A stretch of 30,210 bases of DNA. It comes from a virus. The stretch spans positions 1-30,210 of the IMG/VR virus record IMGVR_UViG_3300031507_000023, one strand, 5' to 3'. The notes under the pieces are model-generated. The model worked only from the letters and a program-made list of their open reading frames with translations. It was not told the DNA's origin and ran no database searches. Below are positions 2,868 through 29,497 of the stretch, piece after piece. A program made the translations under genes and the position numbers. The first letter of the stretch is position 1; the number at the start of each line of letters is the position of its first letter.

Positions 2868-4381
2868 AGATCATCTCTACGCAGACATCAGACCCAAGTC
2901 AGTTATCGGAGTTTGAAAAGGATCAATGCTATAACGGACTGGATTGTTGTATTACTCACGAGGTATGGAACGCAATCAAATTCGGCCACAACGAACAAAC
3001 CATGGAGGAAGCGCAGACCTACGCCTTCTCCAAGGCCCTTCAAGGGCCAGTGCTTGAAATGAACGCCCGTGGCATCCTTGTGGATCAAGCCCGGCGCAAC
3101 GAGGTCCTTGAGGAATACCACGACGCCTTAGACCAACTCGAACGCCAGCTAACGCTTATTGTCCTCGAAGGTGTGGGGATGAAGTGGTTTAACTGGCGAT
3201 CGAATGATGATCTTAAAGCCCTGTTCTACACCCACCTTCAAATCCCGGAGATTAAACGCTATGGTAGGCCTACAGTCGATCGTGATGCTTTGGAGAAGAT
3301 GGAGCAATACACCGTTACCAAACAAATCATCGCACATATGTCCGCTATGCGAGAATTGGCAAAGGATATTGGAGTTCTCAAAACCGACATTGATACAGAT
3401 GGCAGGATGCGGACAAGCTATAACATCGCTGGAACTAATACCGGAAGATTTAGCTCGTCTTATTCCGAATACGGAACAGGCGGGAACGTACAGAACATCA
3501 AAGAGTCTCTCAGGTCTGTATTTATTGCTGATCCCGGATTCAAATTCGCCAAATTCGACGCAAAGTCCGGCGAGTCCTACGTCGTCGGCGCAATAGAATG
3601 GAATCTGTTCAATGATCCGACATACCTTGACGCTGTCGATTCCGGTGACGTGCATACAGCCGTTGCAAGAATTTGTTGGCCGGAACTTGGGTGGACTGGC
3701 AATCTCGCCCAAGATAAGGATATCGCTGAGACGCCATTCTATCGTCACTATACATATCGATTTATGTGTAAGAAACTTGGCCACGGTTCGAATTATGAAG
3801 GTCAGCCTACAACACTTGCTCAACAGTCAAAGCTTCCGGTTAACGTGGTTAGGCAATTCCAACCGAAGTATTTTGGTGCGTTCCCGGCCCACCTACGGTG
3901 GCACGCATGGGTCAAGGCGCAGGTATGGGCTAAAGGCTATATCGTCAATATCGCCGGACGGAAGCGATGGTTCTTAGGTCGACGGAATGATGCGGATGTG
4001 ATTCGCGAAGCAATTGCTTATGATCCGCAAGGTTCCCTTGCCGACATTGTTAATCAAGGCATGCTCAACACATGGCGCCAACGCCCAGCCATACTCATGG
4101 CCCAAGACCACGATGCAACAACATGGATGTATCCGGAGGAGATGGAAGATGAAGTTGTCCCAAAGCTAGAAGCAATGCTCGCGGTGGAGGTGCCGCTCAA
4201 CAACGGTCGCCTTTTGGCAATTCCATATGATTGCCAAATAGGTTGGAACCGAGGGAAATATGATGCACGGAAGAATCCCAACGGACTCGTCAACTACAAA
4301 GGGCACGATAATCGCCAAAGACAAACGGAAGCTGGAATCTTGGATAGACAGTTTCGTCGAGCAGACAGGAAATCTAGATAG
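2864..4381 (+). CDS. DNA polymerase I (family A), polymerase part
   Basis: 505 residues, starting in an ATGA overlap with the UDG-exonuclease gene. It begins with the end of the exonuclease domain, including ExoIII Tyr23-x3-Asp27 (CYNGLDCCITHEV). Then come thumb and palm: TNTGRFSSS and GGNVQNIKESLRSVF, and motif A with Asp232 (FAKFDAKSGESYVVG), where Ser/Glu replace the usual SQIEL pattern. The O-helix, motif B, runs Arg299, Lys303, His307, Tyr311. Motif C has His416-Asp417 followed by Ala418 rather than Glu. It replicates the phage genome. The last 40 residues are encoded in a 122-base overlap with the downstream ATPase gene. His307 corresponds to Phe762 of E. coli Pol I, a position linked to fidelity and nucleotide discrimination. 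Confidence 0.93.
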   Translation: MKIISTQTSDPSQLSEFEKDQCYNGLDCCITHEVWNAIKFGHNEQTMEEAQTYAFSKALQGPVLEMNARGILVDQARRNEVLEEYHDALDQLERQLTLIVLEGVGMKWFNWRSNDDLKALFYTHLQIPEIKRYGRPTVDRDALEKMEQYTVTKQIIAHMSAMRELAKDIGVLKTDIDTDGRMRTSYNIAGTNTGRFSSSYSEYGTGGNVQNIKESLRSVFIADPGFKFAKFDAKSGESYVVGAIEWNLFNDPTYLDAVDSGDVHTAVARICWPELGWTGNLAQDKDIAETPFYRHYTYRFMCKKLGHGSNYEGQPTTLAQQSKLPVNVVRQFQPKYFGAFPAHLRWHAWVKAQVWAKGYIVNIAGRKRWFLGRRNDADVIREAIAYDPQGSLADIVNQGMLNTWRQRPAILMAQDHDATTWMYPEEMEDEVVPKLEAMLAVEVPLNNGRLLAIPYDCQIGWNRGKYDARKNPNGLVNYKGHDNRQRQTEAGILDRQFRRADRKSR

Positions 4382-6210: not shown

Positions 6211-6705
6211 TCAATGTGGTATCTCCACGTGGGTTGATAGGATCATCATTAGGTCTCGCGGGTCGACGAGGTGAGCCGGGACTGTGATTGGCCAAGGGAA
6301 GAAGCCAACCTCACGAAGCAAGAGGAACATCTTCGCCGAGCACACGGAATGGTATTTCTTATGATGATGGCCAGGGAATAGGAAGCCCCATGGTGCGGAC
6401 CAGTCATAGGGTTCGCCAATGGCTTTACGGGCGGAGGCATAGAATTGATCGGCCTGAGCTTGGGTGACTGGCAGTTCTATCACAATCGCACATGGCCCAT
6501 AGTTCCGATCGATATAAATCTCCTTCGCATCATATCCCATTGGCCGTTCTTGCATTCCGCCATGGCCGAATTGCCCAATACATGTCCATTCCGGCGTAAC
6601 GCATTCGGCATGGGTGGGGATAAAAGGCATCCCCACCATACCAGATCGCCAAACGATTGCGCCGCAAGCAAAGCCTTTATGGCGAACGAAGCGAATGCGG
6701 ATCAT
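6211..6705 (-). CDS. Permuted papain-fold (NlpC/P60-like) hydrolase
   Basis: 164 residues when started at the ATG that overlaps the preceding stop (ATGA). Longer versions lack support. The order of motifs is that of circularly permuted papain-fold proteins (YiiX/LRAT-like NlpC/P60 superfamily): an early His32 in IPTHAECV, a strand with IGQFGHGGMQERP, later YDWSAPWGFLFPG, and then a cysteine, Cys122, in HSVCSAKMFLLL. Members cleave amide or ester bonds in peptidoglycan peptides or lipids. No signal peptide is seen. Its place between a secreted protein and holin-like genes suggests a second lytic or envelope-acting enzyme, although virion-associated roles are also possible. Confidence 0.75.
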   Translation of the reverse strand: MIRIRFVRHKGFACGAIVWRSGMVGMPFIPTHAECVTPEWTCIGQFGHGGMQERPMGYDAKEIYIDRNYGPCAIVIELPVTQAQADQFYASARKAIGEPYDWSAPWGFLFPGHHHKKYHSVCSAKMFLLLREVGFFPWPITVPAHLVDPRDLMMILSTHVEIPH

Positions 6706-7190
6706 AGGCCAGGGACCAAGGTTGCCAACCCAGCGCCGCCAGAGATTACAATCCCGATAAACCCGACAATATCCTTCTTCACCATCGACGCGACTGGAGA
6801 GCAAGAGATCATGAATGCGGAGTCGGGTTGTAGGGCATTGCGGAGTTCCACAATCCGCTCGAACTTGGATATAAGCCCAGGATCAGGGAATGGAAGTGGC
6901 TGGCCATCGGCTCCGTTGACTGCCTTTTGGCGAACGTTGATTAAGTCGATCCATGCGCCATAGCACGGCCCAGTGACCTTAGACCCTGATGCATCGGCCA
7001 TAAGTTTGGCGTATTGTAGATCCGGCAGGAGCTTGGCATCGAGTGCACCGATGATGTTCTCCAATGGATCACTGGAGGTTGGGGCTTGACGAGGATTCAA
7101 TCCCAATGGATCGATAGGGAGCTTGAGCTTATTCTGAGCGAAGGCTGAGGTCGATACCAATAAAGCCAAAGCCAATACAATCCACTTCAT
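6702..7190 (-). CDS. Secreted protein with C-terminal hydrophobic segment, unknown function
   Basis: 162 residues beginning with a textbook Sec signal peptide (MKWIVLALALLVSTSAFAQ, cleavage likely before Gln19). This fixes the start at 7190; upstream in-frame codons encode arginine-rich nonsense. The mature part has two cysteines (TGPCYGAW and MISCSPV), a proline-rich linker, and ends in a hydrophobic, glycine-rich segment (FIGIVISGGAGLATLVPGL) that could anchor it in a membrane. A G-rich Shine-Dalgarno precedes the ATG, one base after the upstream stop. Similar small proteins follow holin-like genes in related phages by general recollection, but the function is not known. Spanin-like or inner-membrane disruption roles are possible and unproven. 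Confidence 0.7.
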   Translation of the reverse strand: MKWIVLALALLVSTSAFAQNKLKLPIDPLGLNPRQAPTSSDPLENIIGALDAKLLPDLQYAKLMADASGSKVTGPCYGAWIDLINVRQKAVNGADGQPLPFPDPGLISKFERIVELRNALQPDSAFMISCSPVASMVKKDIVGFIGIVISGGAGLATLVPGL

Positions 7191-17071: not shown

Positions 17072-19929
17072 CCCCCAGTCCTCTTGGCTTGATGTTCGTC
17101 TACGTTCAATATGACACCTAAGAGTGTAGCGGGGTATGGATTTGATTGACGAAAGCAGGTTTGGCCATAGACGGTATAGGTTGGGTCGAGGATAGATTTG
17201 GCATCGCCAGTGACGAGATCGGTAATGGTTTGGTTTGGGAGACCAGTTAGCATAGAGCTAATATTACCTCGAACTAGATCCTTCATCGCGACTAGGGTTG
17301 TAAAGTCTGAGCCAGTTTGCAGCCCAAGGGTCTCAGCCACACGCGCGTCTACGTCTTGGATCTTCTTCACTCGACCTTGAATGGTTGGTTCGCCAAGGTC
17401 GACTGCGAGGGTTTGGAGATCACACGTATAGCCAATCCCAACCGTTACCTTGGAGGCTGCAACTCCGAGGGTAAACTGTCCGCTAGTTGGCATAACAAAC
17501 GGAGTGATGATAATTCCGTCCGCAAGACCAGTAACCGTAAGGCCAGCTAGATGTTCAGCACCAGAGAAAGAAGTAGTAGGACTGCCAATATACTGAAGAC
17601 CGGCGTCGACACACCAAGCATCAACAACTCCTGCGGTGAAGATTCGTTCGGCAAAGCGCTCGATGTATTGGACGGTGAAGCTGTTAACGGTTCGCTGGAC
17701 GATTGTGTAAACGGCATCGACTGTGCCTGCGGGGGTGGATTGCTCGGTGATGGTTGCGACGGATTGGAATGTGCCAAGTGTTGTGGAATGGGCCCAGCCA
17801 ATGAAATCCTGTTCCTTAAGGAAGGTCAGGGTTAGCATTGTGCCATCGTTGCGAACGGCCCAGACCATTTTGAATGGTTCTTCAGCCCATGCCCAACCGG
17901 TTATGTTGAAGCCGTAGAAGAGATGCGAGGCGAGTATGGAGATGTCTGTGCCGGTGTAGACGTTGGCGTAGATGTTGTATGAGGAGTCACGGACGATTGA
18001 GCCTTTGGCTTGGACGTAGAGAACGTCATAGTTGGAGATAATGGGTTGGACATCTGATATGCCATTGAAGCTTTGAGCATTGGCGACTAGTGCAGTTGGA
18101 GTGATGGCAGAGCCTGGGGACCCACCATTGATTAACCATGAAGCACGATCGGTGAGGGCCAATAGGCCAGTGGTTTGTGAGACTAAGGCTTTGATTGTGT
18201 TAAGCTGGCCTGAGACAAGCGTTGCGGTTATGGAATCTGTGGACTGAGCAGGGCTTGAGACGTTGAAGTTGTAATAGGCTCCAGGCTGGGACATGTAGAA
18301 GGTTTGTGGCGAGGCTGTAGGTCCAGCGAGGATTAGGCGTTGTTGGAAGAACGCTGGGACGGACGGGAATCCGTTGGAATTGGTGGATAGTACAGCAGTG
18401 CCAGCAGCGGTGCCAGAGGAGAAGGTAACGGTGGGGACTGATAGATAGCCAGCACCGGAGTTGAGGACTTGGACTTGGGTTACGCCCCAAGTTACATTGG
18501 CTGTAGCTCCTGTTCCAACACCTGAGGTTGATAGTTGAACCAAGGGATTGGCCGGGGTAGTGCCAGAGCTTACAAGGCCTTGGTTTGATGGAGCGGTGGT
18601 GATTGGGAGCCATGTGGCAACGGCAGTGCCTGCGCGAGTGGCGACTACAAGGATAACGCCATTGGTGAAGGTAACGGTGTCGCCTACTTGGTATCCGGCT
18701 CCACCAGCGCCAATGGTTGGGGTGCCTATGCCTTGGAGTAGGGGTTGGATAGAGCCTGCGATTGTGGATGAGGCACCGGATAGGGTTGCTGTGGGGACGG
18801 TGGTATAGGTTCCGGTGTTTGTGATTGTAATATGATCCACACCCGCGCCAAGGAACGGATTCTTGGCAATTGGCGGAGTTTGGGCAAAGTCTGGGGTTAT
18901 GTTTGAGTCGATGAAGGTCACGCCTGGAGCAGTGACTGAACCAATGAACCCAAATGTATTACCCGCAGGGATGATTGCGAAATAGCTAACATCGGCCTTG
19001 TAGACGTTGTAACCTACAGCACCTGCGACAGCGAACCAACCTATAGATATAGAACCAGCTACAGTACGGATGTCGTAAGTTGGCCCCGCATTAGCTTGAG
19101 GTGAGGGTGAGGATTCTTGGCCATTGGCATCAATTGAGGTGATAACATAGGCATAATAGGTGGAAGCTGGTGCAGCCCCAGGAGCAGGGAATGTAGACAC
19201 TAACCCTGGAGTGCCTGGAGTTGTTGCACTGGTGCCGATAACAATAGGGAGTAAGGTCCAATTAGCTGCGGTGACTAGGGTTAGGACATAGGGTTGGTAA
19301 GAGGGATGGCAAAGGACCATCTGGTTTACGTTTTGGGCGTATTTGACCTTGGCGAGATCGGCTGCGAGATAGGGTGAGGTGATAGTGTAGACACGGGAAG
19401 CGGTGCCGCCGGAGACGTAGGCGCCGTAGGCAGTGGCATCGATTGCTACACCGTTGAGATTGGCAATGGTAACAGCCGCACCGACTACGTTGGTGACTAA
19501 GAAATAGCGCCCGTTGAGTTGGGTCATGCCAACTATACCAGAGACGAATATCCAATCGCCAATGGTAAAGGTATTGCCTGTGACGGATAGTTGGCATGGA
19601 TTTGTTGGTAAGGTGTTGGCGATAGGGAATGAAGGTTCAAGAACTGGTGCACCGTTGAAGAAGAAGCGAACATAGCGATCGCCGAACTCGAGGACATAGC
19701 CTACGGTGAAGGAGGCTTGGAAGGGGATTAGGCGGACGGCGGTAGCGGACTTATAGCATTGGAGGACGTATTTGGTTCCGGTTCGGGTGGAGGCACCTCC
19801 GCGATAGTCGACAAACCAGTTTTGAAGAAGTGCCGCGCCGGATTTGTATTTGGCAAGATCAACGCGGGAGTAGAGCTTGGGGCTCCATTCGCCAGAGTTG
19901 AATGAAGCCTGGATGTGTTGTTCACTCAT
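17068..19929 (-). CDS. Tail nozzle protein (T7 gp12-like tail tubular protein B)
   Basis: 953 residues from the ATG that forms TAATG with the adaptor gene stop. The N-terminus is diagnostic: ASFNSGEWSPKLYSRVDL, LQNWFVDYRGGASTRTGTKY, and then FTVGYVLEFGDRYVRFFFNG. The central part carries an FN3-like insert (about 235-355: YYAYVITSIDANGQESS, AVGYNVYKAD) and three short beta repeats (TNTGTYTTVPTATLSG, GAGGAGYQVGDTVTFTNG, NSGAGYLSVPTVTFSSG). The C-terminal half returns to the conserved propeller-like body (FFQQRLILAGPTASPQTFYMS, SWLINGG). It forms the distal tube of the short tail through which DNA leaves. Confidence 0.92.
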   Translation of the reverse strand: MSEQHIQASFNSGEWSPKLYSRVDLAKYKSGAALLQNWFVDYRGGASTRTGTKYVLQCYKSATAVRLIPFQASFTVGYVLEFGDRYVRFFFNGAPVLEPSFPIANTLPTNPCQLSVTGNTFTIGDWIFVSGIVGMTQLNGRYFLVTNVVGAAVTIANLNGVAIDATAYGAYVSGGTASRVYTITSPYLAADLAKVKYAQNVNQMVLCHPSYQPYVLTLVTAANWTLLPIVIGTSATTPGTPGLVSTFPAPGAAPASTYYAYVITSIDANGQESSPSPQANAGPTYDIRTVAGSISIGWFAVAGAVGYNVYKADVSYFAIIPAGNTFGFIGSVTAPGVTFIDSNITPDFAQTPPIAKNPFLGAGVDHITITNTGTYTTVPTATLSGASSTIAGSIQPLLQGIGTPTIGAGGAGYQVGDTVTFTNGVILVVATRAGTAVATWLPITTAPSNQGLVSSGTTPANPLVQLSTSGVGTGATANVTWGVTQVQVLNSGAGYLSVPTVTFSSGTAAGTAVLSTNSNGFPSVPAFFQQRLILAGPTASPQTFYMSQPGAYYNFNVSSPAQSTDSITATLVSGQLNTIKALVSQTTGLLALTDRASWLINGGSPGSAITPTALVANAQSFNGISDVQPIISNYDVLYVQAKGSIVRDSSYNIYANVYTGTDISILASHLFYGFNITGWAWAEEPFKMVWAVRNDGTMLTLTFLKEQDFIGWAHSTTLGTFQSVATITEQSTPAGTVDAVYTIVQRTVNSFTVQYIERFAERIFTAGVVDAWCVDAGLQYIGSPTTSFSGAEHLAGLTVTGLADGIIITPFVMPTSGQFTLGVAASKVTVGIGYTCDLQTLAVDLGEPTIQGRVKKIQDVDARVAETLGLQTGSDFTTLVAMKDLVRGNISSMLTGLPNQTITDLVTGDAKSILDPTYTVYGQTCFRQSNPYPATLLGVILNVDEHQAKRTGG

Positions 19930-21035
19930 TAGTACATACCAAAGCAATCGCCCCATTGGAACCCATCATATGGCCCAGTGGTGTAGCTATTGCCAAATGC
20001 ATTGCCCCGGATGCGGATGAAGTCAGGGGTCACGTCGTTGATCACAAGGCCTTCGTTGCCATCGGCAACACGGGCTTCCATGATTCGTTCGTTGACGAGT
20101 TTGATTAGAGAGTTGGCCTTATCGCGGGAGTTCTCCTTCAAGGCCATCATCATGGCACTAGCAACGAGGTTGATCCAAGCGGTTTGGAATAAGGAGTCCA
20201 TTACATTTGGATCAGTGACTTGGGCCACATAGCTGAGGGTGGCGAACTCTTGGTTGGTAAGGATCACCCGCGCTGCATTTGCGCCGCCTTGGACGATGTT
20301 AAAGGTTGCGCCAGTGCCAACACCAGTGGTTGAGCCTTGGGCTATTGGGTTGGTTTGGACGCCGAAGTAGAAGCCACTTACACCTGTGCCTAGGCCAACG
20401 GCACCGTTGACTTGGTTGAAGATACCAACGGTAGCAATGACACCTCCTGGGGCGGTGAGGACTTGAAGGGTAGCAGGTGCGCCTATGGGTGGACTGCCCG
20501 ATGGACCCGAGGCTAAGGTGATGATGTCGCCAACGGCATAGCCAGTGCCACCGTTGACGACAGTTGCTGAGCCAGCGAAGAGGAAGTAGTCGGTTTGAAC
20601 CGCATAGCGAATTGGTTGACCCCACCAATAGGATGAGGCACCACCAGTGACCGCTGTGGTGATTGGAATTCCGCTGGTGAAGCCAGTTTGGGTTGAGGGG
20701 ATGATGAAAGCCGGGCGTAGGCAATCGACGGGGTATTGGTATTCATAGGCCCATGGAGGTGGAGGTTGGCCTGGAGCCCATAGGGTTGTGGCGGCTCCGG
20801 TGTTTTCAGGAGTGCCGGGGGAGGAGGTGATGTAGGTGAGATTGGCTGTCCGCATTGCACAATTCCACGGTGCTTTACGGAGCAGGTCATCACGGGCGTT
20901 GGCGAAGATGAGGTTGAACTGAGTGGCTTCGTTGGATAGTGGAACGCCAGTTGGTCCAACCTCACCTGCGGTTACAGTCGTGCGGGTGCCGAGGACTTGT
21001 AGCGATCGGTTGCAGATGTCTACAAGCGCGGTCAT
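19929..21035 (-). CDS. Tail adaptor protein (T7 gp11-like tail tubular protein A)
   Basis: 368 residues; it starts ALVDICNRSLQVLGTR and continues with NARDDLLRKAPWNCAMRTA, the usual helical adaptor core linking portal and nozzle, and WAYEYQYPVDCLRP. A beta-rich insertion at about 155-255 (VVNGGTGYAVGDIITL and following) interrupts the core. The helical body resumes at NQEFATLSYVAQVTDPNVMDS and closes with DFIRIRGNAFG. The inserted module matches the repeats in the neighbouring nozzle protein. GGAAAG precedes the start. The normal family length without insertion is close to 200-250 residues. Confidence 0.9.
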   Translation of the reverse strand: MTALVDICNRSLQVLGTRTTVTAGEVGPTGVPLSNEATQFNLIFANARDDLLRKAPWNCAMRTANLTYITSSPGTPENTGAATTLWAPGQPPPPWAYEYQYPVDCLRPAFIIPSTQTGFTSGIPITTAVTGGASSYWWGQPIRYAVQTDYFLFAGSATVVNGGTGYAVGDIITLASGPSGSPPIGAPATLQVLTAPGGVIATVGIFNQVNGAVGLGTGVSGFYFGVQTNPIAQGSTTGVGTGATFNIVQGGANAARVILTNQEFATLSYVAQVTDPNVMDSLFQTAWINLVASAMMMALKENSRDKANSLIKLVNERIMEARVADGNEGLVINDVTPDFIRIRGNAFGNSYTTGPYDGFQWGDCFGMY

Positions 21036-21038
21036 TGG

Positions 21039-21254
21039 TTATCGCTTTCCTTGCGTTCCGCAAACGCCACAGTTGTCGCCGCCGAGGCCAGGAGAGCCAG
21101 AGGACTGGCCGCCAGATGGCTGTTGACCATTGCCATGGTTGTCACCGTGGAGCCCAGGGCCATTGCCGTCGTAGATGCCTTTGGGCCCTTGAGGCGCCAT
21201 GTAGTTGCGGACATCGCCAACGTTGGGCTTGCCGCCATCGCGGGTGAGGGACAT
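21039..21254 (-). CDS. Small glycine-rich protein
   Basis: 71 residues, start overlapping the previous stop (TAATG). A short conserved-looking opening (GGKPNVGDVRNYMAPQGPKG) is followed by a Gly/Asn/Ser/Gln-rich disordered half and a CGVCG motif near the end. It ends GTQGKR, whose codons supply the ribosome binding site of the adaptor gene. Similar small proteins often precede adaptor genes in podoviruses, but the role is unknown. Confidence 0.65.
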   Translation of the reverse strand: MSLTRDGGKPNVGDVRNYMAPQGPKGIYDGNGPGLHGDNHGNGQQPSGGQSSGSPGLGGDNCGVCGTQGKR

Positions 21255-21475
21255 TAGATTCGCCTTCCGTTGGTTGGAGTATCTTCCTGAAGGGCACCAA
21301 GGGTCAAGGGACCAGCAGTAGGCGGGACTTCATCTGGTTTGGTCAATTCCATGTGAGAGTTGTTGTGCTCATTCAGTTTCCGCATCGCTGCATCGTGGAT
21401 GGCCTTGAGGCTAGGCTGTTCACGGGTGTCCTTCTGGATCTGAAGAAGGGCCGCAATTTCATGCACGTCCATCAT
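21254..21475 (-). CDS. Hypothetical protein
   Basis: 73 residues, coupled to the next gene by TAATG and lying three bases after the previous stop. The N-terminal half is probably helical (DVHEIAALLQIQKDTREQ, LKAIHDAAMRKLNEHNN) and the C-terminal half is proline-rich and disordered. No family was recognised. It is accepted as coding because it fits exactly into the tightly packed operon and has an AGAGGT-like site upstream. Confidence 0.6.
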   Translation of the reverse strand: MMDVHEIAALLQIQKDTREQPSLKAIHDAAMRKLNEHNNSHMELTKPDEVPPTAGPLTLGALQEDTPTNGRRI

Positions 21476-21478
21476 AAC

Positions 21479-21682
21479 TTACCTCTTTCCTTGTGAGCCG
21501 GCTTTGTGGGTGACTTGGCTTACCATTGGGGCTTTGAGCCCCCGGCCTTCGTACATCGGCACCGAGTTGGTGCGGACTTGCTGAATGCCGATGTCGGCAG
21601 TGAAGGCGGGGTTTACTCCTCGGCTCACTGGTTCGGTCTTGGAGCTTTCACTCACGTCTCTAGTAGCTCGGCCTTGTTTCAT
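21479..21682 (-). CDS. Hypothetical small basic protein
   Basis: 67 residues without predicted structure: polar and basic, with the motif NPAFTADIGIQQVRTNSVPM in the middle. It starts in an ATGA overlap with the previous stop and ends HKAGSQGKR, again with the last codons providing the next ribosome binding site, as in the glycine-rich protein two genes further on. A virion minor component is possible from position only. Confidence 0.6.
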   Translation of the reverse strand: MKQGRATRDVSESSKTEPVSRGVNPAFTADIGIQQVRTNSVPMYEGRGLKAPMVSQVTHKAGSQGKR

Positions 21683-22083
21683 GTTGACTCCTTTGGTTTG
21701 GCAATTTGGCGAGTGTGATCATAGCGAGGCTTGACAGGGTGTATAGTCATCTCACGCCGAACCTTTTCAAAATGACCACCATCAGAATGAAGATCGTGGA
21801 GGATTTGCAAGGCGCGGTCGTGATTACGTTCCATCTCTTGGTCAATCTCCTTTGGTGGTATGAGTCCAAGTTCAACATATGCGGCCTTTACATGAACCAC
21901 ATCGTGATAGTAGTTCATGAACCTTCGCATCTTTTCGGGGACTTCCTTTTCGGCTTCCCCCATGGCGTAGAGGGCTTTGGTTACACCTTGGCGGATTGTG
22001 GTGAGTTCACGGAAGATGCGGAAGAGTAGGTCACGTTCGGTAACAGAGTCGTCGAGGGTGTATGGGGTTTCGGCGTCTGCCAT
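21679..22083 (-). CDS. Hypothetical helical protein
   Basis: 134 residues from the ATG at 22083, which has AAGGA at the right distance; the longer in-frame version to 22182 would overlap the esterase gene and reads as nonsense. It is alpha-helical and charged: RDLLFRIFRELTTIRQGVTK, EVPEKMRRFMNYYHDVVHVK, EIDQEMERNHDRALQIL. It lies between the secreted esterase gene and the small genes before the adaptor. No family was recognised; a structural or assembly role is a guess from its place. Confidence 0.65.
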   Translation of the reverse strand: MADAETPYTLDDSVTERDLLFRIFRELTTIRQGVTKALYAMGEAEKEVPEKMRRFMNYYHDVVHVKAAYVELGLIPPKEIDQEMERNHDRALQILHDLHSDGGHFEKVRREMTIHPVKPRYDHTRQIAKPKEST

Positions 22084-22091
22084 TGGGGTCC

Positions 22092-23027
22092 TTAGAAGTT
22101 GTTGTAGATTATGGTTTTGAATAACGGCATCATGGTGTTCTGTCCAGCGGTTGAGGGATGAACTAAGGCATTCACCGCACACCCACCAGCACCGACTTCA
22201 GCATAACGACAAGCAGAAGCTGAACAGGTGTTGTTAATGGCAGTGTCTAAGTCTGGACCTTGAATAATAGTTGTGCCATTAACAACCGCTGCCTGCGCTG
22301 CACGAATTGTAGCCGAGGTACAGCCATAGGCATAGGTCTCGAGTGGAACTATCCATTTGCCAACAAAACCTAGATTTGCCGCAACGGTGAACCAAGTTTG
22401 CATAAAGGCTTGGTAAGCTGACTGAGACGTGCCATTGATACCATCAGATTCGCCTTCCATAGAGATAATGGCATTGACTCGAGAAGGTGGGATTCCCTGT
22501 TCATTAAGAGTAAAGAATGCCAATGGAAGAAGATAACCAAGCGGTCCGCTGGGCATAAATTGAGAGATCGGCTGACCTGCTGAAGATGGATTAACCCAAA
22601 TCACACGATCATATTTGCCACCAGCGATAAGGAGATCACAAAGCTTAGCCCACATGGAAGAATAGACAGGCCAGCCTTGATAGCCATTAGCGCTAAAGGT
22701 AGAACCTATTTCTGTCCCACCGGTGTTGTTTAGATATGCCTTACGATCACCGGTGAAGTTTATGGTTCGGCAATCTTGTGTGGCTACATAGTTTGACTGT
22801 GCGTGAGAGCCGCCTAGGGATTGACCTACGACAACGAATACGAAGGTATTGGCGGTGAGTGCGGCAGAGCTAAGGGTCAGGCCTGAGGTGTTGGTAAATC
22901 GTGTGGCCTCGCCATTGCCTGGAGCGGCATAGAGATTAGGCGGAGCGGTGCCTGAGGAGGCGTGCTGGGCATGGCCTGAGTTGAATGAACCAAGGAGTAG
23001 GAGTAGAACTAAGAATATGCGGCGCAT
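22092..23027 (-). CDS. Secreted SGNH hydrolase, sialate O-acetylesterase-like
   Basis: 311 residues. The Sec signal peptide (residues 1-20, RRIFLVLLLLLGSFNSGHA) is followed by an SGNH esterase pattern: block I strand VFVVVGQS with nucleophile candidate Ser70, a block with GESD at 192-195 (ISMEGESDG) as in carbohydrate-esterase or sialate O-acetylesterase domains, and His290 before PSTAGQ in the last block. The mature part has six cysteines. The enzyme would remove acyl groups from glycans, plausibly host O-antigen or capsule. Phage esterases of this type are usually parts of tail spikes without signal peptides, so export is unexpected. Start overlaps the previous stop (TAATG). Substrate is inferred. 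Confidence 0.78.
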   Translation of the reverse strand: MRRIFLVLLLLLGSFNSGHAQHASSGTAPPNLYAAPGNGEATRFTNTSGLTLSSAALTANTFVFVVVGQSLGGSHAQSNYVATQDCRTINFTGDRKAYLNNTGGTEIGSTFSANGYQGWPVYSSMWAKLCDLLIAGGKYDRVIWVNPSSAGQPISQFMPSGPLGYLLPLAFFTLNEQGIPPSRVNAIISMEGESDGINGTSQSAYQAFMQTWFTVAANLGFVGKWIVPLETYAYGCTSATIRAAQAAVVNGTTIIQGPDLDTAINNTCSASACRYAEVGAGGCAVNALVHPSTAGQNTMMPLFKTIIYNNF

Positions 23028-24244
23028 TAGTTCATAACCTCCCAGAGGTTAATAAACCCACCACCGTTACTGTCATTCCAGCTACAAGTACCTGCGGAGC
23101 TTTTAATGCGGACGGTGTAAGTTAGTGGACCGATGGAGGCAGGGAAGTCAGAGCCAGCGAAGTTAACCACAGTGATATAGGTTGCAGCGGTTGAGCCAAA
23201 TGCGCCGGGGACAGCGGAGCCGACTGGAACACCGCCACGGGCCATTTGAAGGGTGCAGAGGGTGCCTGAAGCTGCGGTTAGGTTGTTCTGGATGCCAAAC
23301 GACCAACCAACGGAATTGACCGGGCTGATTAGTGTGATTGGTGCAGTGACGTTAGTGTCGACTAAGGTAGCGCTAGCGGTGGTTGATCCAGTAGATGCAG
23401 CAAAGTTAACCGTGACACCGTTAAAGGTTTCACCGGGCTTATGAATACCTCGGCCGTAGAGTTGGATCTTACTCGGCGCATTGGCCCATACACCAGAGAC
23501 GGTTTGGCCACTGTTGAAGTCAAAGTAGCCAAGTAGGCGCACTGGAACAGTGGTGAGTGCTGCGGTGGAGTAGTATACTCCTGCGGATGTGGCATTGGTA
23601 CAGGCATTGCATGCGGTTGTGGTAGGGAATGAGGTTTCGTCGATGGTGGTTATGGCATTGGCGGTAGCGGCTTTGATTACACCAAGAGCTACTGTGCCAG
23701 CGTTGTTGAAGGCTACGATCTCGATTCGGGTTGGGGTTGCGTTGGCTGCGCCGAAGGTTGAGCCAGTCGCGCCTGTGGCAAAGGATAAGGCGGCAGTAAC
23801 GGAGACTGAAGTATAGGTTCCGGTTGTGGCCGTAGCGTTGCGGAATGAGATCAGACACGGGACCGCGACAGATGGATCGGCACCAGATTGGGTTTTGAGC
23901 GCAACGCCAAAGGTGTTAGCCGCGCCTGACCAAGCAAGGGTACAGTTGGTGACGGAATCGGAGTCGTTGACGCTAGCGGATGGGGCTGCATAAGTTCCAT
24001 CTGCACGAAGGAAGGTGGTTGTACCACCTGGAAAGGGAATATTTCCAAAGCCTCCAGAGCCATTGTTGGTTTGAAGACTGCCTGTGGCTCCACTAGGACC
24101 GCCAAAGACACTGAATGGAATCTGCCCTGGGATACCCCCAGCGACTGTACCACATGCGGTCTGGGGGGCGAAGACACCGTTGCATTGTGCCAATGCGCAA
24201 GTTGGCAGAAGAAGTAGGGCGAGTGCGAGGAGAATTCGTTTCAT
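23027..24244 (-). CDS. Secreted fibre-like protein
   Basis: 405 residues from the ATG in an ATGA overlap. Residues 1-20 form a Sec signal peptide (KRILLALALLLLPTCALAQ). The mature protein is Gly/Ala/Thr/Ser-rich and beta-rich. It has a fibre-style opening (LQTNNGSGGFGNIPFPGG, TTFLRADGTYAAPS) typical of phage tail-fibre and collar proteins, and a C-terminal beta domain ending GGGFINLWEVMN. Eight cysteines include ACNAC. The combination of fibre-type sequence and export signal is odd. It could be a virion fibre whose hydrophobic N-terminus has another use, or a truly exported surface or decoy protein. Confidence 0.75.
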   Translation of the reverse strand: MKRILLALALLLLPTCALAQCNGVFAPQTACGTVAGGIPGQIPFSVFGGPSGATGSLQTNNGSGGFGNIPFPGGTTTFLRADGTYAAPSASVNDSDSVTNCTLAWSGAANTFGVALKTQSGADPSVAVPCLISFRNATATTGTYTSVSVTAALSFATGATGSTFGAANATPTRIEIVAFNNAGTVALGVIKAATANAITTIDETSFPTTTACNACTNATSAGVYYSTAALTTVPVRLLGYFDFNSGQTVSGVWANAPSKIQLYGRGIHKPGETFNGVTVNFAASTGSTTASATLVDTNVTAPITLISPVNSVGWSFGIQNNLTAASGTLCTLQMARGGVPVGSAVPGAFGSTAATYITVVNFAGSDFPASIGPLTYTVRIKSSAGTCSWNDSNGGGFINLWEVMN

Positions 24245-24666
24245 TGGAGTAACGTCCATCCACCGGTTTCGAGAATTGGTTTGAGAAGGAATGCGCCGAA
24301 GTTGGATTGGAGACGGATAGTAGCAAGGCCAGAGATTGTTTCAGCACCGGATGGGTTGATGGTGTAGGTGTTGGCTGAAGCAAACCCACCAATGTCGACG
24401 ATGGTGATAGGGACTAGAACCCATTGGCCCGGGATGGCTTGAGGGGTTTGTGGTGTGGCTTTGGATGAAGGGAGGTTGATGGTGACGTTGGCATTGGCAT
24501 TGATGGTGATTAGGTTAGTGCCACGGGAGATGGCATAGGTCCCCGTGGCAACTATCGGCAACACAGCTTGTTGCGGAACGGTGATCCAGCCAACCGACGG
24601 ACCAAGGTAGAACCGTTCGAATTGGCGAAAGGTGCCACCTTGGTCGAGGTCGGATTGGCTACCCAT
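24241..24666 (-). CDS. Putative tail fibre/structural protein
   Basis: 141 residues without signal peptide or cysteine. It is beta-rich, with NLITINANANVTINLPSS, NTYTINPSGAETISGLATI and the closing LKPILETGGWTLLQ, a pattern often seen at the end of phage fibre proteins, where ladders of strands build a trimeric shaft or tip. The start overlaps the preceding stop (TAATG) with GGAGAG upstream, and its end overlaps the secreted fibre-like gene (ATGA). A structural role is inferred from composition and position. Confidence 0.7.
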   Translation of the reverse strand: MGSQSDLDQGGTFRQFERFYLGPSVGWITVPQQAVLPIVATGTYAISRGTNLITINANANVTINLPSSKATPQTPQAIPGQWVLVPITIVDIGGFASANTYTINPSGAETISGLATIRLQSNFGAFLLKPILETGGWTLLQ

Positions 24667-25196
24667 TACACTCTCCGTTCAACGGTCTTGGTTGCGGCGA
24701 GGGTCATGATCAGCTGTTGATTCTGAGCAAGCATATCGGACATGGTTTTCATGATCTCTGCCATGCCCTCGATCTTGACGACGTTGGCTTGGGCCTGAGC
24801 CTTAGCCTGTTCATCCTGAAGACCTTCAATGACCTTTTGGCCAAAGGAAATATCTTCGTTGGGAGTTGTGCCCCAACGCTTGGCGAACTTGGCTGAGACG
24901 GCTTTGGCTTCGTCGTCGAGAGGGATCATGTCGGGGGTTGGGTCACCAGCGAAGATGATGTCATCGGCATGAGAGGCATCAGTTCGATGGGCTACGATTA
25001 CTTCGCCTGCTACGATCTCACCTCGCGGATTGCGGAAGGTCACGTTCCAGCAGTTAGGATCATTGATGTCGAGTTGAAGCGGGACTTTAATCCGGGTGCG
25101 AAGCTGCTTGCCCGTTGCACGGTCGGTTTCGTTATACTCCCATTCGTTGTTTTCGACTGAGAGGTAGTGGGAAGTAGAGAGACGCCAGCGAGCCAT
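24666..25196 (-). CDS. Hypothetical virion-region protein
   Basis: 176 residues. The first half is a mixed alpha/beta domain with RLSTSHYLSVENNEWEYNE, QLRTRIKVPLQLDINDP and GEIVAGEVIVAHR; the second half is a long charged helix (QKVIEGLQDEQAKAQAQANV) ending in ATKTVERRV, probably a coiled coil. Such proteins recur near capsid and fibre genes of podoviruses but have no assigned function. AAAGGA lies before the ATG. It is cytoplasmic by sequence, unlike its neighbours. Confidence 0.7.
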   Translation of the reverse strand: MARWRLSTSHYLSVENNEWEYNETDRATGKQLRTRIKVPLQLDINDPNCWNVTFRNPRGEIVAGEVIVAHRTDASHADDIIFAGDPTPDMIPLDDEAKAVSAKFAKRWGTTPNEDISFGQKVIEGLQDEQAKAQAQANVVKIEGMAEIMKTMSDMLAQNQQLIMTLAATKTVERRV

Positions 25197-25210
25197 TGGG
25201 ATGGTCCTTT

Positions 25211-25711
25211 CTATAGTTCAATTGCGATTATGGTAACGTTGTTGAGACTGCAAGTGCCGCCGGTGAGGGCAGTGAGGTCGATGTCATACCAATAGGCGGT
25301 ATTGACTATTAGACCTGTAGCATAGCCCTCAGCCGCAGCACCAAACACAGCCGCAGCGGTGCTGGCGTTATTGACTGTGGCAGATAGAGCCCCGGCTGAT
25401 GTACCTGAGGGAGCAGCGGCGTTGGCTGGTGCGGAGCCTGTGCCGAACTTTATAATCCAAGAACATCCATCGCTAGCAGTGTTGTTGCTGATGCCAAAGG
25501 TGATGAGGAATAGGATATTGCCGGTGGTTTTAGGGGTAATGGTTCCTGCCATCCCCATCATTACGCCAGTGAGTGAAGTGGTACCAGTAGGATTGGCAGG
25601 AGATGCAGTGGTTCGGGCTCCAAGGGGATTGGTGTTGCCACTGATGGTTTGTGCCCCAAGCGGCGTGATGCCAATGGCAAGGGCGAAGAGTGCTGAAAGG
25701 AGCCGCTTCAT
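25211..25711 (-). CDS. Secreted beta-rich small protein
   Basis: 166 residues. The start at 25711 is fixed by an ATGA overlap and by the signal peptide that follows (KRLLSALFALAIGITPLGAQ). The mature part is Thr/Ala/Gly-rich, with strands such as TGNILFLITFGISNN and GYATGLIVNTAYWYDIDLTAL, resembling the head domain of tail-fibre and spike proteins, and ends NNVTIIAIEL. It has two cysteines, in DGCSW and GTCSL. An apparent longer ORF upstream is the shadow of the neighbouring gene. Function unknown; export is predicted from the signal peptide. Confidence 0.72.
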   Translation of the reverse strand: MKRLLSALFALAIGITPLGAQTISGNTNPLGARTTASPANPTGTTSLTGVMMGMAGTITPKTTGNILFLITFGISNNTASDGCSWIIKFGTGSAPANAAAPSGTSAGALSATVNNASTAAAVFGAAAEGYATGLIVNTAYWYDIDLTALTGGTCSLNNVTIIAIEL

Positions 25712-26961
25712 TGGATTGTTCCATGGATGAAGCCAACGGTGGATAGGGTTAGGGTTGAGCAGGCGGTGGAGGAGATAGCCGCAGTTATGCCAACGGAGAA
25801 GAACTCCAACGGTTGCGGAGCGTAGTTGATTGAGCCTATGCCCCCTGCGGCAATTGGGATGCAGTCTTGGAGATTGCCTGAGGCAGTCCCAGCGGTTGTG
25901 GAGCCGTTGGATGGAGCCGTCGCGGAGTTGAAGATCATAAGCCAACATGCAGCGGTGCAATTGGCATAGCTGCCGATTAGATGGCCAGCGGCGATTTTGA
26001 GGACAAGAGACGATGCAACTGAACCAGTAACGGAGGATACTGCCGTTGGTGCATTACCAGCAGTGTCACCGATTGTGACTTGGTTGATTTGCATAGTCGA
26101 TTGGATGCTAGGGCCAACCGATGCGTTGACGACTTCGAACAAGGCGTTGAGTTGGTTAACATCAGGTCCAGCGGAACCACGGGTGGTGAATGCAACCAAT
26201 AGCAATTGGCCATTGGTCTGGTTTTCCATATACCAGAGGATGTTGTCACCACGGAATAGGATGACGTATTTGTAGGAGCCTGTGTCGGTGTGTTGCGGAG
26301 TGCAGTTGCAACCGGCGGAGAAGGCACCAGAGACACCAGCAGTGGCGACTGGGGTAAAGCCTTGGGCAACGGATAGGTCGGCAATGATGGTCTTGCCACC
26401 TGAGGCCCAGGTTACCGCACGTAGCTTGCCATCAGTTCCGTCTTCGAAGCCAACGCAGTTGGTGCAATAGGCAATGGCGGTTGGGGTGGTTGGTGCGGTG
26501 CCAAAGCCAATGAACTCAACGGTATTGGTTGTGGAGGGGTTGGAGAGGTTGATGTTGGATTGGAAGAAGAGATAGCCTGGGTTCTTGTCGAAGAAGGCTA
26601 GTTGGGTTTGAAGTACGGTGAAACCATTTGCGGTGGTGCCACCAGCGAGAGTGGTTTGGCCCACAGCGTTGGATGCAGCCACACCACCATTGCCGGTGGA
26701 TGGGGTTAGCCAACGATTGATGATGTTGAGTGTGCCAGTGGAGAAGTCATCAACGAAGAGTTGTTTGGTTTGATCTGGCCACTGTTGTAGCCATCCGCCA
26801 TTGGTGGTTGGGATGACGCCGATAGGGACGCCTTGGGTTCCGTTGGAGAATGTGCCCGCGATTGGGTTGACGGGCACACCGCCGGGGATTGGGAACTGTT
26901 GGGCGAGAAGGGGTACGATTAGAGCGAGGGATAAGACCAGCCCCGCGATTAGTTTCTTCAT
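25708..26961 (-). CDS. Secreted fibre-like protein with lectin/jelly-roll-like region
   Basis: 417 residues with GGAGG six bases before the ATG. A Sec signal peptide (KKLIAGLVLSLALIVPLLAQ) is followed by a proline/glycine linker, then a beta-sandwich-like region (KQLFVDDFSTGTLNIINRW, NPGYLFFQSNINLSNP, TVEFIGFGT, YKYVILFRGDNILWYMEN) reminiscent of concanavalin A-like lectin or LamG folds, and a C-terminal module (SLVLKIAAGHLIGSYANCTA, GFIHGTIQ). Eight cysteines occur, in close pairs (YCTNC, GCNC, NCTAAC). Binding to glycans is a reasonable inference; no catalytic residues were identified. It may be a spike or an exported adhesin-like product. Confidence 0.75.
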   Translation of the reverse strand: MKKLIAGLVLSLALIVPLLAQQFPIPGGVPVNPIAGTFSNGTQGVPIGVIPTTNGGWLQQWPDQTKQLFVDDFSTGTLNIINRWLTPSTGNGGVAASNAVGQTTLAGGTTANGFTVLQTQLAFFDKNPGYLFFQSNINLSNPSTTNTVEFIGFGTAPTTPTAIAYCTNCVGFEDGTDGKLRAVTWASGGKTIIADLSVAQGFTPVATAGVSGAFSAGCNCTPQHTDTGSYKYVILFRGDNILWYMENQTNGQLLLVAFTTRGSAGPDVNQLNALFEVVNASVGPSIQSTMQINQVTIGDTAGNAPTAVSSVTGSVASSLVLKIAAGHLIGSYANCTAACWLMIFNSATAPSNGSTTAGTASGNLQDCIPIAAGGIGSINYAPQPLEFFSVGITAAISSTACSTLTLSTVGFIHGTIQ

Positions 26962-27302
26962 TTGATCCTCCGATTTCTAAGTTCTCGGCTAAAGGGGAAT
27001 AGGGTGGCTCCGGTACTGACTAAACTCTGGTCTCGGGTCAATAACCCATGGTAGGAGATCAGGTCTGCGGTGACGGATAATAAGGCCAGAAGGGCTAAAG
27101 CCACGTAGAGAATGACCGAGAACGAAGCAACAAATGAACGCTGTGGTTGGGGTATAGAGTGGGAAATAGAAGGTGGCGAGGATGGCAAATCCCCAAACAG
27201 CCATCGAAGGATACCATACCAAAGCGCAACCAAGGGCGGTGAACGGGATGAGTGCGGCGAGTCCGAATTCGAACCAGAGTTGTAGGTAGTCATTGTGTAC
27301 AT
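26958..27302 (-). CDS. Candidate small membrane protein overlapping glycan ligase gene
   Basis: An ORF out of frame with the 3' end of the O-antigen-ligase-like gene. The last 60 codons look protein-like: a membrane segment (VILYVALALLALLSVTADLIS) followed by SYHGLLTRDQSLVSTGATLF and a basic end (SRELRNRRIK). Its stop forms ATGA with the next gene, and its last codons contain that gene's GGAGG. The N-terminal half is low-complexity, so the true start is uncertain and may be an internal GTG. It could be a real small gene or only the shadow of the ligase C-terminus. Confidence 0.35.
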   Translation of the reverse strand: MYTMTTYNSGSNSDSPHSSRSPPLVALWYGILRWLFGDLPSSPPSISHSIPQPQRSFVASFSVILYVALALLALLSVTADLISYHGLLTRDQSLVSTGATLFPFSRELRNRRIK

Positions 27303-28035
27303 ACTCCGGGTGCATTAGATTAGTGGGGGTTAGGATGTAGATACTGATGAAGGAGTTTGCGGACCAACCGAACCAAGAAAGGCCATGGATTGCTGAAGCC
27401 CAAATGGTTAGGCGCTCGATGTCGGATGGGGAAGTTGGGGCAAGGATTAGGAGAATGGCGGTCAGAGCGCAAAACACCCCAACGGACCAATGTAGACGTG
27501 GGGCTACGCCACAGGCGAGCACAACCCATCCACCTCGAGAGCCGCTAAGGATTAGGCCTGGGAGGAGGGATGGGATGTAGAACCATAGGCGATGTTGAAG
27601 TAGGCAAAGAATGAGGAGTGCGGATGTTGCGCCAAGAATGGTTCGGTTGTAGAGCAAGCCAGCGACGTTGCCTTTGTAGGCGACGGGGATAGGGGCGTAG
27701 CCGAACCATTGGAAGATGGCGATTGCGGAGGAGATGGATAGGCCATAGGCTAGGCCCTTGTAGAGTGGAGTTGGATCCTCAGTTGATTGGCCTAGTTGAA
27801 AAGATAGACCCCACAAGACTACTAACATGACGCCGAAGATAGTGTCATCGACTTGTGGGGTCCACAAGGTGCCAAGGATGGCAAAGGCAATGAAGCCAAA
27901 CCATACTCGGGAGATGGGAGCGTAGTGGAGAAGGATAGGCAAGGCGAGGCATAGCACGGCCCATTGCGTCGGGATTGACGCCCCAGTGTAACCTGGGATG
28001 AAGCAAACGGGAAGCAATAGGCCGAAGTAGAACAT
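26989..28035 (-). CDS. O-antigen ligase/polymerase-like membrane protein (Wzy_C family)
   Basis: 348 residues with about 10-12 membrane segments from the N-terminus on (FYFGLLLPVCFIPGY, WAVLCLALPILL, VWFGFIAFAILG and others). It carries Wzy_C landmarks: Arg167 in LSGSRGGWV, the segment RLTIWASAIHGLSWFGWSAN, and a periplasmic loop with His247-Asn248 followed nine residues later by Gly258, which fits the WaaL signature H-N-x9-G exactly. Family members transfer or polymerise lipid-linked O-antigen in the inner membrane. It starts in a TGATG overlap inside the late operon, between genes for secreted proteins. Expected effect: altered host surface glycans. Whether it ligates, polymerises or blocks host enzymes cannot be told. 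Confidence 0.82.
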   Translation of the reverse strand: MFYFGLLLPVCFIPGYTGASIPTQWAVLCLALPILLHYAPISRVWFGFIAFAILGTLWTPQVDDTIFGVMLVVLWGLSFQLGQSTEDPTPLYKGLAYGLSISSAIAIFQWFGYAPIPVAYKGNVAGLLYNRTILGATSALLILCLLQHRLWFYIPSLLPGLILSGSRGGWVVLACGVAPRLHWSVGVFCALTAILLILAPTSPSDIERLTIWASAIHGLSWFGWSANSFISIYILTPTNLMHPEYVHNDYLQLWFEFGLAALIPFTALGCALVWYPSMAVWGFAILATFYFPLYTPTTAFICCFVLGHSLRGFSPSGLIIRHRRPDLLPWVIDPRPEFSQYRSHPIPL

Positions 28036-28469
28036 CAGTTCAAGCTCGGACAGAAGTAGCCGATCTTATTACCCGAGGCGGAGGTTTGGGTAATGGTCAG
28101 GGCGGTGGTGGAGGTGGAGTAGGTCTCAGCAGCGAGCACAGCTTGCCAGCCTAGGATACAGGCTGGGGCGGTGACAAAAGCAGTGCCGAAGACTACGGTT
28201 GCGGTGGTGGCAGAGGTGCCCATGGTGATGACACCGGAAGAGTCGTTGCCAGCAATGGTTGGGGTACCAGTGCCGGTGATTGATGGCCCAGGCCGAGGGG
28301 TGGAGGGGAAGAGGAGATGGCCTGGGAAGTAGACACCGTTGTTGGTGTCTACGGAGAATGCGCCGGTGGTGTCTTGGCTAAGCTGAAGGGCGCGAGTGAT
28401 GGTTTGGGCGAGGGCATAGCCTCCGGCCAAACAGAGGATGAGGATAGATGGGAGTAGGTATTTCTTCAT
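28035..28469 (-). CDS. Secreted small beta-rich protein
   Basis: 144 residues with signal peptide KKYLLPSILILCLAGGYALA, cleaved before Gln. The mature part has ALQLSQDTTGAFSVDTNNGV, a short linker with PSTPRPGPSITGTGTP and a compact beta domain (VITMGTSATTATVVFGTAF, APACILGW, IGYFCPSLN) with two cysteines. The final domain resembles beta domains found at the ends of phage fibre proteins (GTP...G...V.FGTAF...PAC). GAGG lies nine bases before the ATG. Function unknown; it precedes the glycan ligase gene and is coupled to it. Confidence 0.72.
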   Translation of the reverse strand: MKKYLLPSILILCLAGGYALAQTITRALQLSQDTTGAFSVDTNNGVYFPGHLLFPSTPRPGPSITGTGTPTIAGNDSSGVITMGTSATTATVVFGTAFVTAPACILGWQAVLAAETYSTSTTALTITQTSASGNKIGYFCPSLN

Positions 28470-28474
28470 GGCGG

Positions 28475-28954
28475 TTACCTCAGTTCATACCATTTGGTGG
28501 TTCCAGCGGAGTACTGAAACTCAACCGATGTTTTAGCCGTGATGGTTTGGGATGCATAGGTGGTATTGAGGGATGAACCTGCCCCTGCTACAACAGTAAC
28601 CATTGAGGTCAAGGTTGTGTCAGAAGCAACTGTTACAATCTCACCGTCGAATGGTCCAACGGGAAGGTTAACCGTCCATGTAGTAGGGGCGGTGCCAACC
28701 CAGTAGACTGTGGAATTGGCTTGGGTCAGAGTAGTGGTTGGGTTGCCTGAAGCTGATGGGACAACCAATAAACCCGCTCCATTGCGCACTTGATTGATGC
28801 AAAGGAATTGAGATGGTCCACCAGGGCCTTGACCGGCATTCCAGCATTCATTGCCAGAAATAGCATTCTGAGTGACTTGCTGAGCAATGGCTACAGAGGC
28901 TAGGGCTACTGCAATAGCAGCCCCACCGAGGAAGAGTTTGAGGCGTTTGTTCAT
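28475..28954 (-). CDS. Secreted small beta-rich protein
   Basis: 159 residues with signal peptide NKRLKLFLGGAAIAVALAS then VAIAQ, cleavage before Gln. Two cysteines near the start of the mature protein (NECWNAG, FLCINQV) could pair. The C-terminal part (TWTVNLPVGPFDGEIVTVAS, SVEFQYSAGTTKWYELR) is a fibre-tip-like beta domain similar to those of phage structural proteins that end in a KW-Y element. It follows the capsid cement gene and lies six bases before the next secreted gene. Role unknown. Confidence 0.72.
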   Translation of the reverse strand: MNKRLKLFLGGAAIAVALASVAIAQQVTQNAISGNECWNAGQGPGGPSQFLCINQVRNGAGLLVVPSASGNPTTTLTQANSTVYWVGTAPTTWTVNLPVGPFDGEIVTVASDTTLTSMVTVVAGAGSSLNTTYASQTITAKTSVEFQYSAGTTKWYELR

Positions 28955-28963
28955 GATTGCCTC

Positions 28964-29497
28964 TTAGTTAGCAACAGTGATGCCGGCAGGATATCCACCC
29001 ATTACAGCATTGCTGGTGCTGAGATAGGGCTGATCCATACGGTCAAGGACGATGTAGGAAGAGACGGCACCAGCAGTGGTTGTGGCAGCACCGATGACAT
29101 AGCTCAATTGCAAGAAGCGAGGCATGGCGATGCCAGCAGGCGGGCGAGGCATGTCCATATCCATAAGCCGTGCGCCTGCTACGAGGGTGGCAAGAGCATA
29201 GGCAGGCGAGACCCACCAGTCAGAGAAGGCGTTAGCGCCACCAGAGCCGTTGTCGGTTGCGCCTTGGAATTTGACTTGCAGCGTTGCGGCGCCAGCAGAG
29301 GCGACGGTGGTAGTGATTTGGACGAGGATCTTGAGCGCTGGATCGTCGCCAATGCCAATGTCTCGAGCCCCAGAGAGGTTGGCGAGGACAGGAATGCCAG
29401 CCATGTGGAGATCGATGGAGTTGGTGGAGACGATGGTTGAGGCAACCGCAGCGACTGATTGGGCGTTGGAGAATTGAAGTAGTGCGTCGAGAATCAT
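28964..29497 (-). CDS. Bbp16-family capsid cement protein
   Basis: 177 residues. The opening MILDALLQFSNAQSV, TNSIDL, ARDIGIGDDPALKILVQIT, then LQVKFQGATDN and RFLQLSYVIG match the Bbp16 family, which decorates and stabilises the capsid in Bordetella phage BPP-1 and relatives. It directly follows the major capsid gene, as in that family. AAGGAG lies seven bases before the ATG. No signal peptide and no cysteines, in contrast to the genes downstream. Confidence 0.88.
   Translation of the reverse strand: MILDALLQFSNAQSVAAVASTIVSTNSIDLHMAGIPVLANLSGARDIGIGDDPALKILVQITTTVASAGAATLQVKFQGATDNGSGGANAFSDWWVSPAYALATLVAGARLMDMDMPRPPAGIAMPRFLQLSYVIGAATTTAGAVSSYIVLDRMDQPYLSTSNAVMGGYPAGITVAN

Follow-up and report, generated by a model that had tools for sequence, protein, structure and literature searches.

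The window analysed here, which is the entire virus record IMGVR_UViG_3300031507_000023 of IMG/VR (30,210 bases), holds on its minus strand a 7.9-kb block of genes, lying between a cement-like gene and the tail adaptor gene, in which six products start with predicted Sec signal peptides. The reading favoured here, at a probability of about 0.52, is that this block is the receptor-recognition (tail fibre or spike) module of the phage and that its receptor-binding proteins would be made as pre-proteins. Phage tail parts, fibres included, are normally assembled in the cytoplasm. The host-recognition proteins of this phage and its relatives probably leave the cytoplasm and become oxidised before acting, because they carry cleavable export signals and paired cysteines. 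If they are indeed the receptor-binding proteins of the virion, a widespread group of soil phages would break the rule that the particles of tailed phages are finished inside the cytoplasm, and fibres stabilised by disulfides could plausibly favour survival outside cells.

By homology and gene order the window phage is a podovirus with capsid, adaptor and tail tubular protein B (TTB) of the BPP-1/HTVC010P type. The three genes (phrog_212, phrog_394 and phrog_376) stand in the same order as in BPP-1/HTVC010P-like podoviruses, and the minus strand reads capsid, cement-like gene, block, adaptor (21035-19929), TTB, internal virion proteins and lysis genes.

Signal peptides in the block and their spread through the lineage

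Signal peptides were scored with a home-made scorer of the n-, h- and c-regions, which looks in the first 45 residues for a positive n-region, a hydrophobic core and an AxA-type site. The six block products reach 5.6 to 7.0, and a seventh protein, in the lysis region, reaches 6.4, while all the remaining minus-strand calls of the window stay below 3; in all six block proteins (6/6) the predicted cleavage precedes Gln. The initial annotation had proposed Sec signals for these same seven genes, and all seven N-termini are indeed strong predicted Sec signal peptides. Chance signals were rejected as the source of the six scores, the scorer wrongly passing 1.1% of shuffled N-termini and 0.15% of internal stretches treated as N-termini. 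The same scorer finds no signal in six other genes of the block, here as in relatives, namely those of the MARWRL family and of the protein F15 (Table 1) and four small ones at 21039-22083; the ligase-like gene has the N-terminus of a membrane protein (score 2.6) and no clear signal.

Relatives were gathered by two viral-contig scans with the adaptor as query, which gave at least 314 related stretches. Every unique complete block among them (42/42) carries signal-bearing genes, from one to eight each. Across 12 near-complete genomes, a signal was found in 44 of 112 conserved block genes vs 10 of 447 conserved genes elsewhere (Fisher p = 3e-25, a nominal value because the relatives are not independent), and the 10 outside the block are mostly lipoprotein-like, holin-like or outer-membrane-protein (Omp)-like. 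The families of the block are nearly all-or-none for the signal. No convincing signal genes were found in the virion operons of the cultured phages Vibrio MZH0603, Jess A, BPP-1, HTVC010P and JY33. Judged by gene content, the signal-bearing block is a lineage-wide trait of a large group of uncultured soil phages.

Cysteine content and twin-arginine signals

Cysteine content gives a mark of export that is independent of the signals. In the 12 genomes, the mature signal-bearing proteins contain 1.9% cysteine vs 0.6% in the signal-less block proteins of at least 100 residues, and their cysteine counts are even in 46 cases, odd in 4 and zero in 2. When one value is taken per family, the count is even in 73 and odd in 16 of 89 signal-bearing families (p 7e-10); the six window proteins are all even (2, 2, 8, 2, 8 and 6). 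Signals resembling the twin-arginine (Tat) type occur in 8 of 3170 proteins of related loci and in none of the shuffles. The even, enriched cysteines together with the Tat-type signals point to disulfide formation outside the cytoplasm. Export of the signal-bearing proteins from the cytoplasm, which the initial annotation had put forward, is well supported by these sequence features, by the consistency of signals within families and by their absence from the virion operons of cultured relatives.

Candidate tail fibres and their signal-less partners

The proteins with signals include, by domain and homology matches, tail-fibre proteins, which are mosaics of a conserved N-terminus and a hypervariable body. 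In one relative (L013) the main signal-bearing protein has a collar domain of the phage type (49.4 bits against a cut-off of 24) and resembles cultured-phage tail fibres, with identities of up to 40-48%; in another (L040) it has a C1q domain (30.5 bits, above its cut-off), and others show weak beta-helix or weak pectate-lyase-like matches. The fibre-like character claimed for the window proteins thus holds for members of the block in relatives, while the window's own candidate at 23027-24244 has no Pfam or PHROGs match. It is placed as the fibre by its position, its N-terminus and its mosaic pattern, and relatives match its residues 1-93 only. When 16 fibres of one type and 15 of the other are compared, identity is 62-66% over the first 24 mature residues, 25-33% over residues 25-74 and 20-22% over the last 60. 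In the window nothing occupies the usual fibre position, which follows the gene of the large internal protein, and reading by eye the other proteins of at least 200 residues in the complete relatives G002 and G009 revealed no fibre-like gene. The slot of the main fibre can instead hold a signal-less fibre, as in L038 and L062.

The gene preceding the main signal-bearing fibre, whose start overlaps the stop of that gene in the window, is signal-less and of two kinds, F15 (as here) or F12. A fibre N-terminus of the QCNGVF type accompanies F15 in 20 of 22 cases vs 0 of 31 with F12 (p 1e-12), a match that is suggestive only, because adjacent genes travel together. Most partners of F12 have instead an N-terminus of the CPTRPxGDxSNACASTAFV type, and a scan with this sequence found 74 contigs, nearly all with a signal and an adjacent F12. 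The pair of F12 and a signal-bearing fibre also occurs in four phages with a capsid of another family (L171, L173, L175 and L178), and a tandem-F12 protein replaces F12 in L206 and L212. The association between the cysteine pair of the CPTRP motif and the signal gave p 0.5, in a test spoiled by misassigned start sites; the only cases clear by eye are L038 and L062 (no signal, no pair) and L043 (signal, no pair).

The AlphaFold model of F15 (mean predicted local distance difference test score, pLDDT, 81.5) resembles the XD1 module over about 95 residues, with Z 12.1 to TSP4 of phage CBA120 and 10.2 to gp9 of phage T4 and a Foldseek E of 2e-5; it also matches T4 gp10, the Z values over the three proteins ranging from 10 to 12. 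In CBA120 TSP4 the XD1 module spans residues 80-178 (PMC8825819). F15 is accordingly modelled as an XD1-like connector fold and is a candidate virion anchor.

Two prophages indicate that one fibre can be made in two pieces, an anchor that stays in the cytoplasm and a distal piece that is exported. In a prophage of a bacterial genome (G081), a signal-less anchor of 173 residues, related to the N-termini of T7-type one-piece fibres (31%, E 1e-8), is followed by a signal-bearing protein of 471 residues, whose C-terminal part matches that of the same one-piece fibres, those of other genomes and of phage ctVRi840 (E 8e-9), and then by an endolysin-like gene. In the second (G748), an anchor of 366 residues, which over 248 columns shares 45% identity with a one-piece fibre at its N-terminus, precedes a protein of 376 residues. 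Most of the examined loci with this prophage anchor domain encode a one-piece, signal-less fibre. As a separate observation, the distal fibre of G081 (L238 8775-10190, minus strand) matches the second domain of Mtd at 23.9 bits, under the cut-off of 24.6.

Proposed assembly in two compartments and its alternatives

Under the favoured reading, the fibre and its accessory proteins would be exported late in infection by the Sec machinery of the host, or by Tat in a few relatives. They would lose the signal before the conserved Gln, as the predicted sites suggest, and in the periplasm they would fold and, given their even and enriched cysteines, form disulfides. The partner without a signal (F15 in the window, F12 in relatives, a T7-type N-terminal domain in prophages) would stay in the cytoplasm and, judging by fold and synteny, join the virion as its anchor. 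Lysis would then mix the compartments, and the exported fibre is predicted to dock on the anchor by means of the conserved N-terminus of its mature form. This fuller picture of a particle built in two compartments, with capsid, tail and anchor cytoplasmic, the distal fibre periplasmic (Sec or Tat, disulfides) and the halves joining at lysis, and with the split arising or spreading in several phage lineages, is held more tentatively, at a little under even odds.

Several observations weigh against the receptor-recognition reading. Linkage of neighbouring genes alone could produce the match between partner and N-terminus, and a profile comparison detected no similarity between F15 and F12, nor any shared homology among F15, F12, F17, F18, F20 and F21. 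XD1-like folds are found also in the secreted glycan-binding proteases StcE and CpaA (PMC8825819). The signal-less block families have 32 even and 17 odd cysteine counts, so that the contrast per family is modest (p 0.04). As to the prophages, the distal protein of G081 has 3 cysteines and the signal of the 376-residue protein of G748 is borderline (score 4.99). Docking after lysis, finally, must compete with dilution.

The most serious alternative is that the exported proteins are decoys, that is, secreted receptor-binding copies which cover or edit receptors late in infection and on debris, serving superinfection exclusion or the protection of progeny and forming no part of the virion. This is close to the initial annotation, which saw a masking or superinfection cassette apart from the virion. 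Export itself is well supported, hypervariable fibre bodies would match receptors, and glycan editing could be the task of the esterase and the ligase-like product. However, a decoy has no need for a conserved N-terminus whose type goes with that of the signal-less gene beside it, a signal-less fibre can occupy the same slot, no other fibre-like gene was seen in the complete relatives inspected, and two prophages split what is elsewhere a one-piece virion fibre; moreover, Sec alone reaches just the periplasm, inside the outer membrane. Decoys are therefore considered unlikely, about one chance in four, and masking no longer stands as the leading interpretation: a receptor-binding module of the phage itself agrees better with the evidence.

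Less probable still is that exported enzymes and lectins are freed at lysis to degrade or bind the extracellular polysaccharide of soil, in the manner of soluble depolymerases and with no docking. The SASA-like esterase motifs and the weak beta-helix and pectate-lyase-like matches would suit such a role, but many of the exported proteins are small and show no enzyme signature, collar and C1q domains serve in binding or belong to fibres, and the partner gene is fixed. That ordinary cytoplasmic fibres keep these hydrophobic N-termini uncleaved, as segments for the membrane or for virion assembly, as the normal site of fibre assembly might suggest, is very improbable, since many unrelated families show all three regions (n, h and c) with an AxA that precedes Gln, and in view of the even cysteine counts and the Tat-type signals.

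Relation to known systems

Surface morons and superinfection-exclusion proteins such as Llp of T5 and Lom of lambda are phage-encoded and exported by the host Sec machinery as single accessory genes, whereas here a multi-gene set with fibre domains lies in the virion operon. The coat proteins of filamentous phages are virion proteins with Sec signals, which are assembled in the inner membrane without lysis; the phage described here is instead a tailed podovirus with lysis genes. The podoviruses related to Bordetella phage BPP-1 (Rauchvirus), HTVC010P and Caulobacter phage Jess A share the order of capsid, adaptor and TTB (TTB 30-36% identical), but only a few small genes separate their capsid from their adaptor, the genes for their fibres follow that for the large internal protein, and their virion operon shows no convincing signals. 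One-piece fibres of the T7 or collar type share the collar domain, the T7-type N-terminal domain and the combination of a conserved N-terminus with a variable C-terminus, while in the present case a gene of its own encodes the distal part, which has a Sec signal and paired cysteines. T4 gp9 and gp10 and the N-terminal part of CBA120 TSP4, which belong to branched tailspike hubs (PMC8825819), share the XD1 module of the F15 model, but F15 is a stand-alone protein of 141 residues beside exported fibres.

A search of the open-access literature found no report of Sec-exported tail fibres, an absence that is not proof; tail fibres are a known kind of protein, and their route of assembly is possibly new. 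If the proteins were decoys, a multi-gene exported superinfection cassette within a virion operon would be equally undescribed in the literature searched. On either reading, annotating such genes as secreted host or auxiliary genes would mislead, and so would recombinant work on these fibres in the cytoplasm.

Other genes of the window and side observations

The remaining signal-bearing families are consistent in their signals (Table 1). F17 has 24 members, with a signal in 22 of 23 distinct ones, and the window protein matches StcE_b-sandwich (PF20944) at 23.9 bits, under the cut-off of 27; in F18 the signal is present in 16 of 17 members and the cysteine count is 2 or 4 in every one. The 417-residue protein has relatives 74-81% identical, with 8 cysteines in 7 of 7 members; its proposed lectin-like nature could not be shown, the AlphaFold model having a pLDDT of 31.6. 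The seventh signal-bearing protein, in the lysis region, has homologues in just 2 of 20 long relatives.

Of two enzyme assignments, that of the esterase is partly supported and that of the ligase weakly. The esterase-like product at 22092-23027 retains GQS68-70, GESD192-195 and His290 invariant across three homologues, while its match to Pfam SASA (PF03629) is 12.3 bits, under the gathering cut-off of 24.8; it may act on surface glycans, whether the fibre-module or the decoy reading holds. The glycan ligase proposed in the block does show Wzy_C similarity, which is weak (PF04932, E 6e-6, 26.5 bits, under the cut-off of 31.7; no NCBIfam match), and the family, with five members in blocks, is present in a minority of them. 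Since the Wzy_C family includes both ligases and protein O-glycosyltransferases, the product could act as a ligase like WaaL or as a protein glycosyltransferase like PglL, and it could modify glycans or exported proteins. An open reading frame in an alternative frame (26958-27302, minus strand) overlaps the 3' end of this gene and stops at the start codon of the next signal-bearing gene.

Table 1. Features of the window and Tat-type signals of related loci; export, cleavage sites and functions are predictions, and a slash marks the predicted cut.
Feature	Position	Strand	Signal score	Predicted cleavage	Mature start	Cysteines	Remarks
Cement-like gene, block border	28964-29497	-					phrog_427, 73.5 bits
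Exported small protein, F17	28475-28954	-	6.94	SVAIA/Q, after 24	QQV	2	
Exported small protein, F18	28035-28469	-	6.38	GYALA/Q, after 21	QTI	2	
Multi-pass membrane protein, O-antigen-ligase-like (Wzy_C)	26989-28035	-					optional block member
Exported 417-residue protein	25708-26961	-	6.08	VPLLA/Q, after 20	QQF	8	
Exported 166-residue protein	25211-25711	-	5.58	TPLGA/Q, after 20	QTI	2	
Constant signal-less protein, MARWRL family	24666-25196	-					block marker; 54 members, signal in none
Signal-less partner F15, XD1-like fold, candidate virion anchor	24241-24666	-					141 residues; fold and partner correlation
Main exported fibre, QCN type	23027-24244	-	7.01	TCALA/Q	QCNGVFA	8	hypervariable body
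Exported SGNH/SASA-like carbohydrate esterase (putative)	22092-23027	-	6.43	NSGHA/Q, after 20		6	
Tail adaptor gene, block border	19929-21035	-					phrog_394, 108 bits
Seventh signal-bearing protein, lysis region	6702-7190	-	6.44			2	outside fibre block; hydrophobic C-terminus
Tat-type signal, L013	5522-6376						
Tat-type signal, L024	5533-6252						
Tat-type signal, L071	2286-3131						
Tat-type signal, L071	5221-6072						
Tat-type signal, L079	1155-2393						
Tat-type signal, L084	4280-5695						
Tat-type signal, L085	228-1853						
Tat-type signal, L090	1434-2267						

A DNA-level search of cultured phages gave no close relative of the window phage, and a search of a phage collection gave no match for the window fibre, MARWRL and F17 or for F20 and F18 of relatives; a plasmid search with one of the signal-bearing fibres likewise gave none. 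With the fibre N-terminus as query, sampled genomes gave few matches, a limited number of candidates being scored per genome, and a genome scan for the host returned two contigs of metagenome-assembled genomes and nothing more. The record of Limnohabitans phage DC33 (PQ492659, L155) says Inoviridae, yet it encodes podovirus-type tail genes. The DNA polymerase of the window appears to be encoded as two proteins (1764-2867 and 2864-4381, plus strand), the same split being present in G002 and G009; by eye, one appears to have a uracil-DNA-glycosylase-like start and an exonuclease-like part and the other to be polymerase-like. Relatives also encode signal-bearing Omp-like proteins starting with ADL (L124 4878-5576, G013 34406-35086 and G008 37221-37925), two of the three adjoining lysis genes, which may hint at the host.

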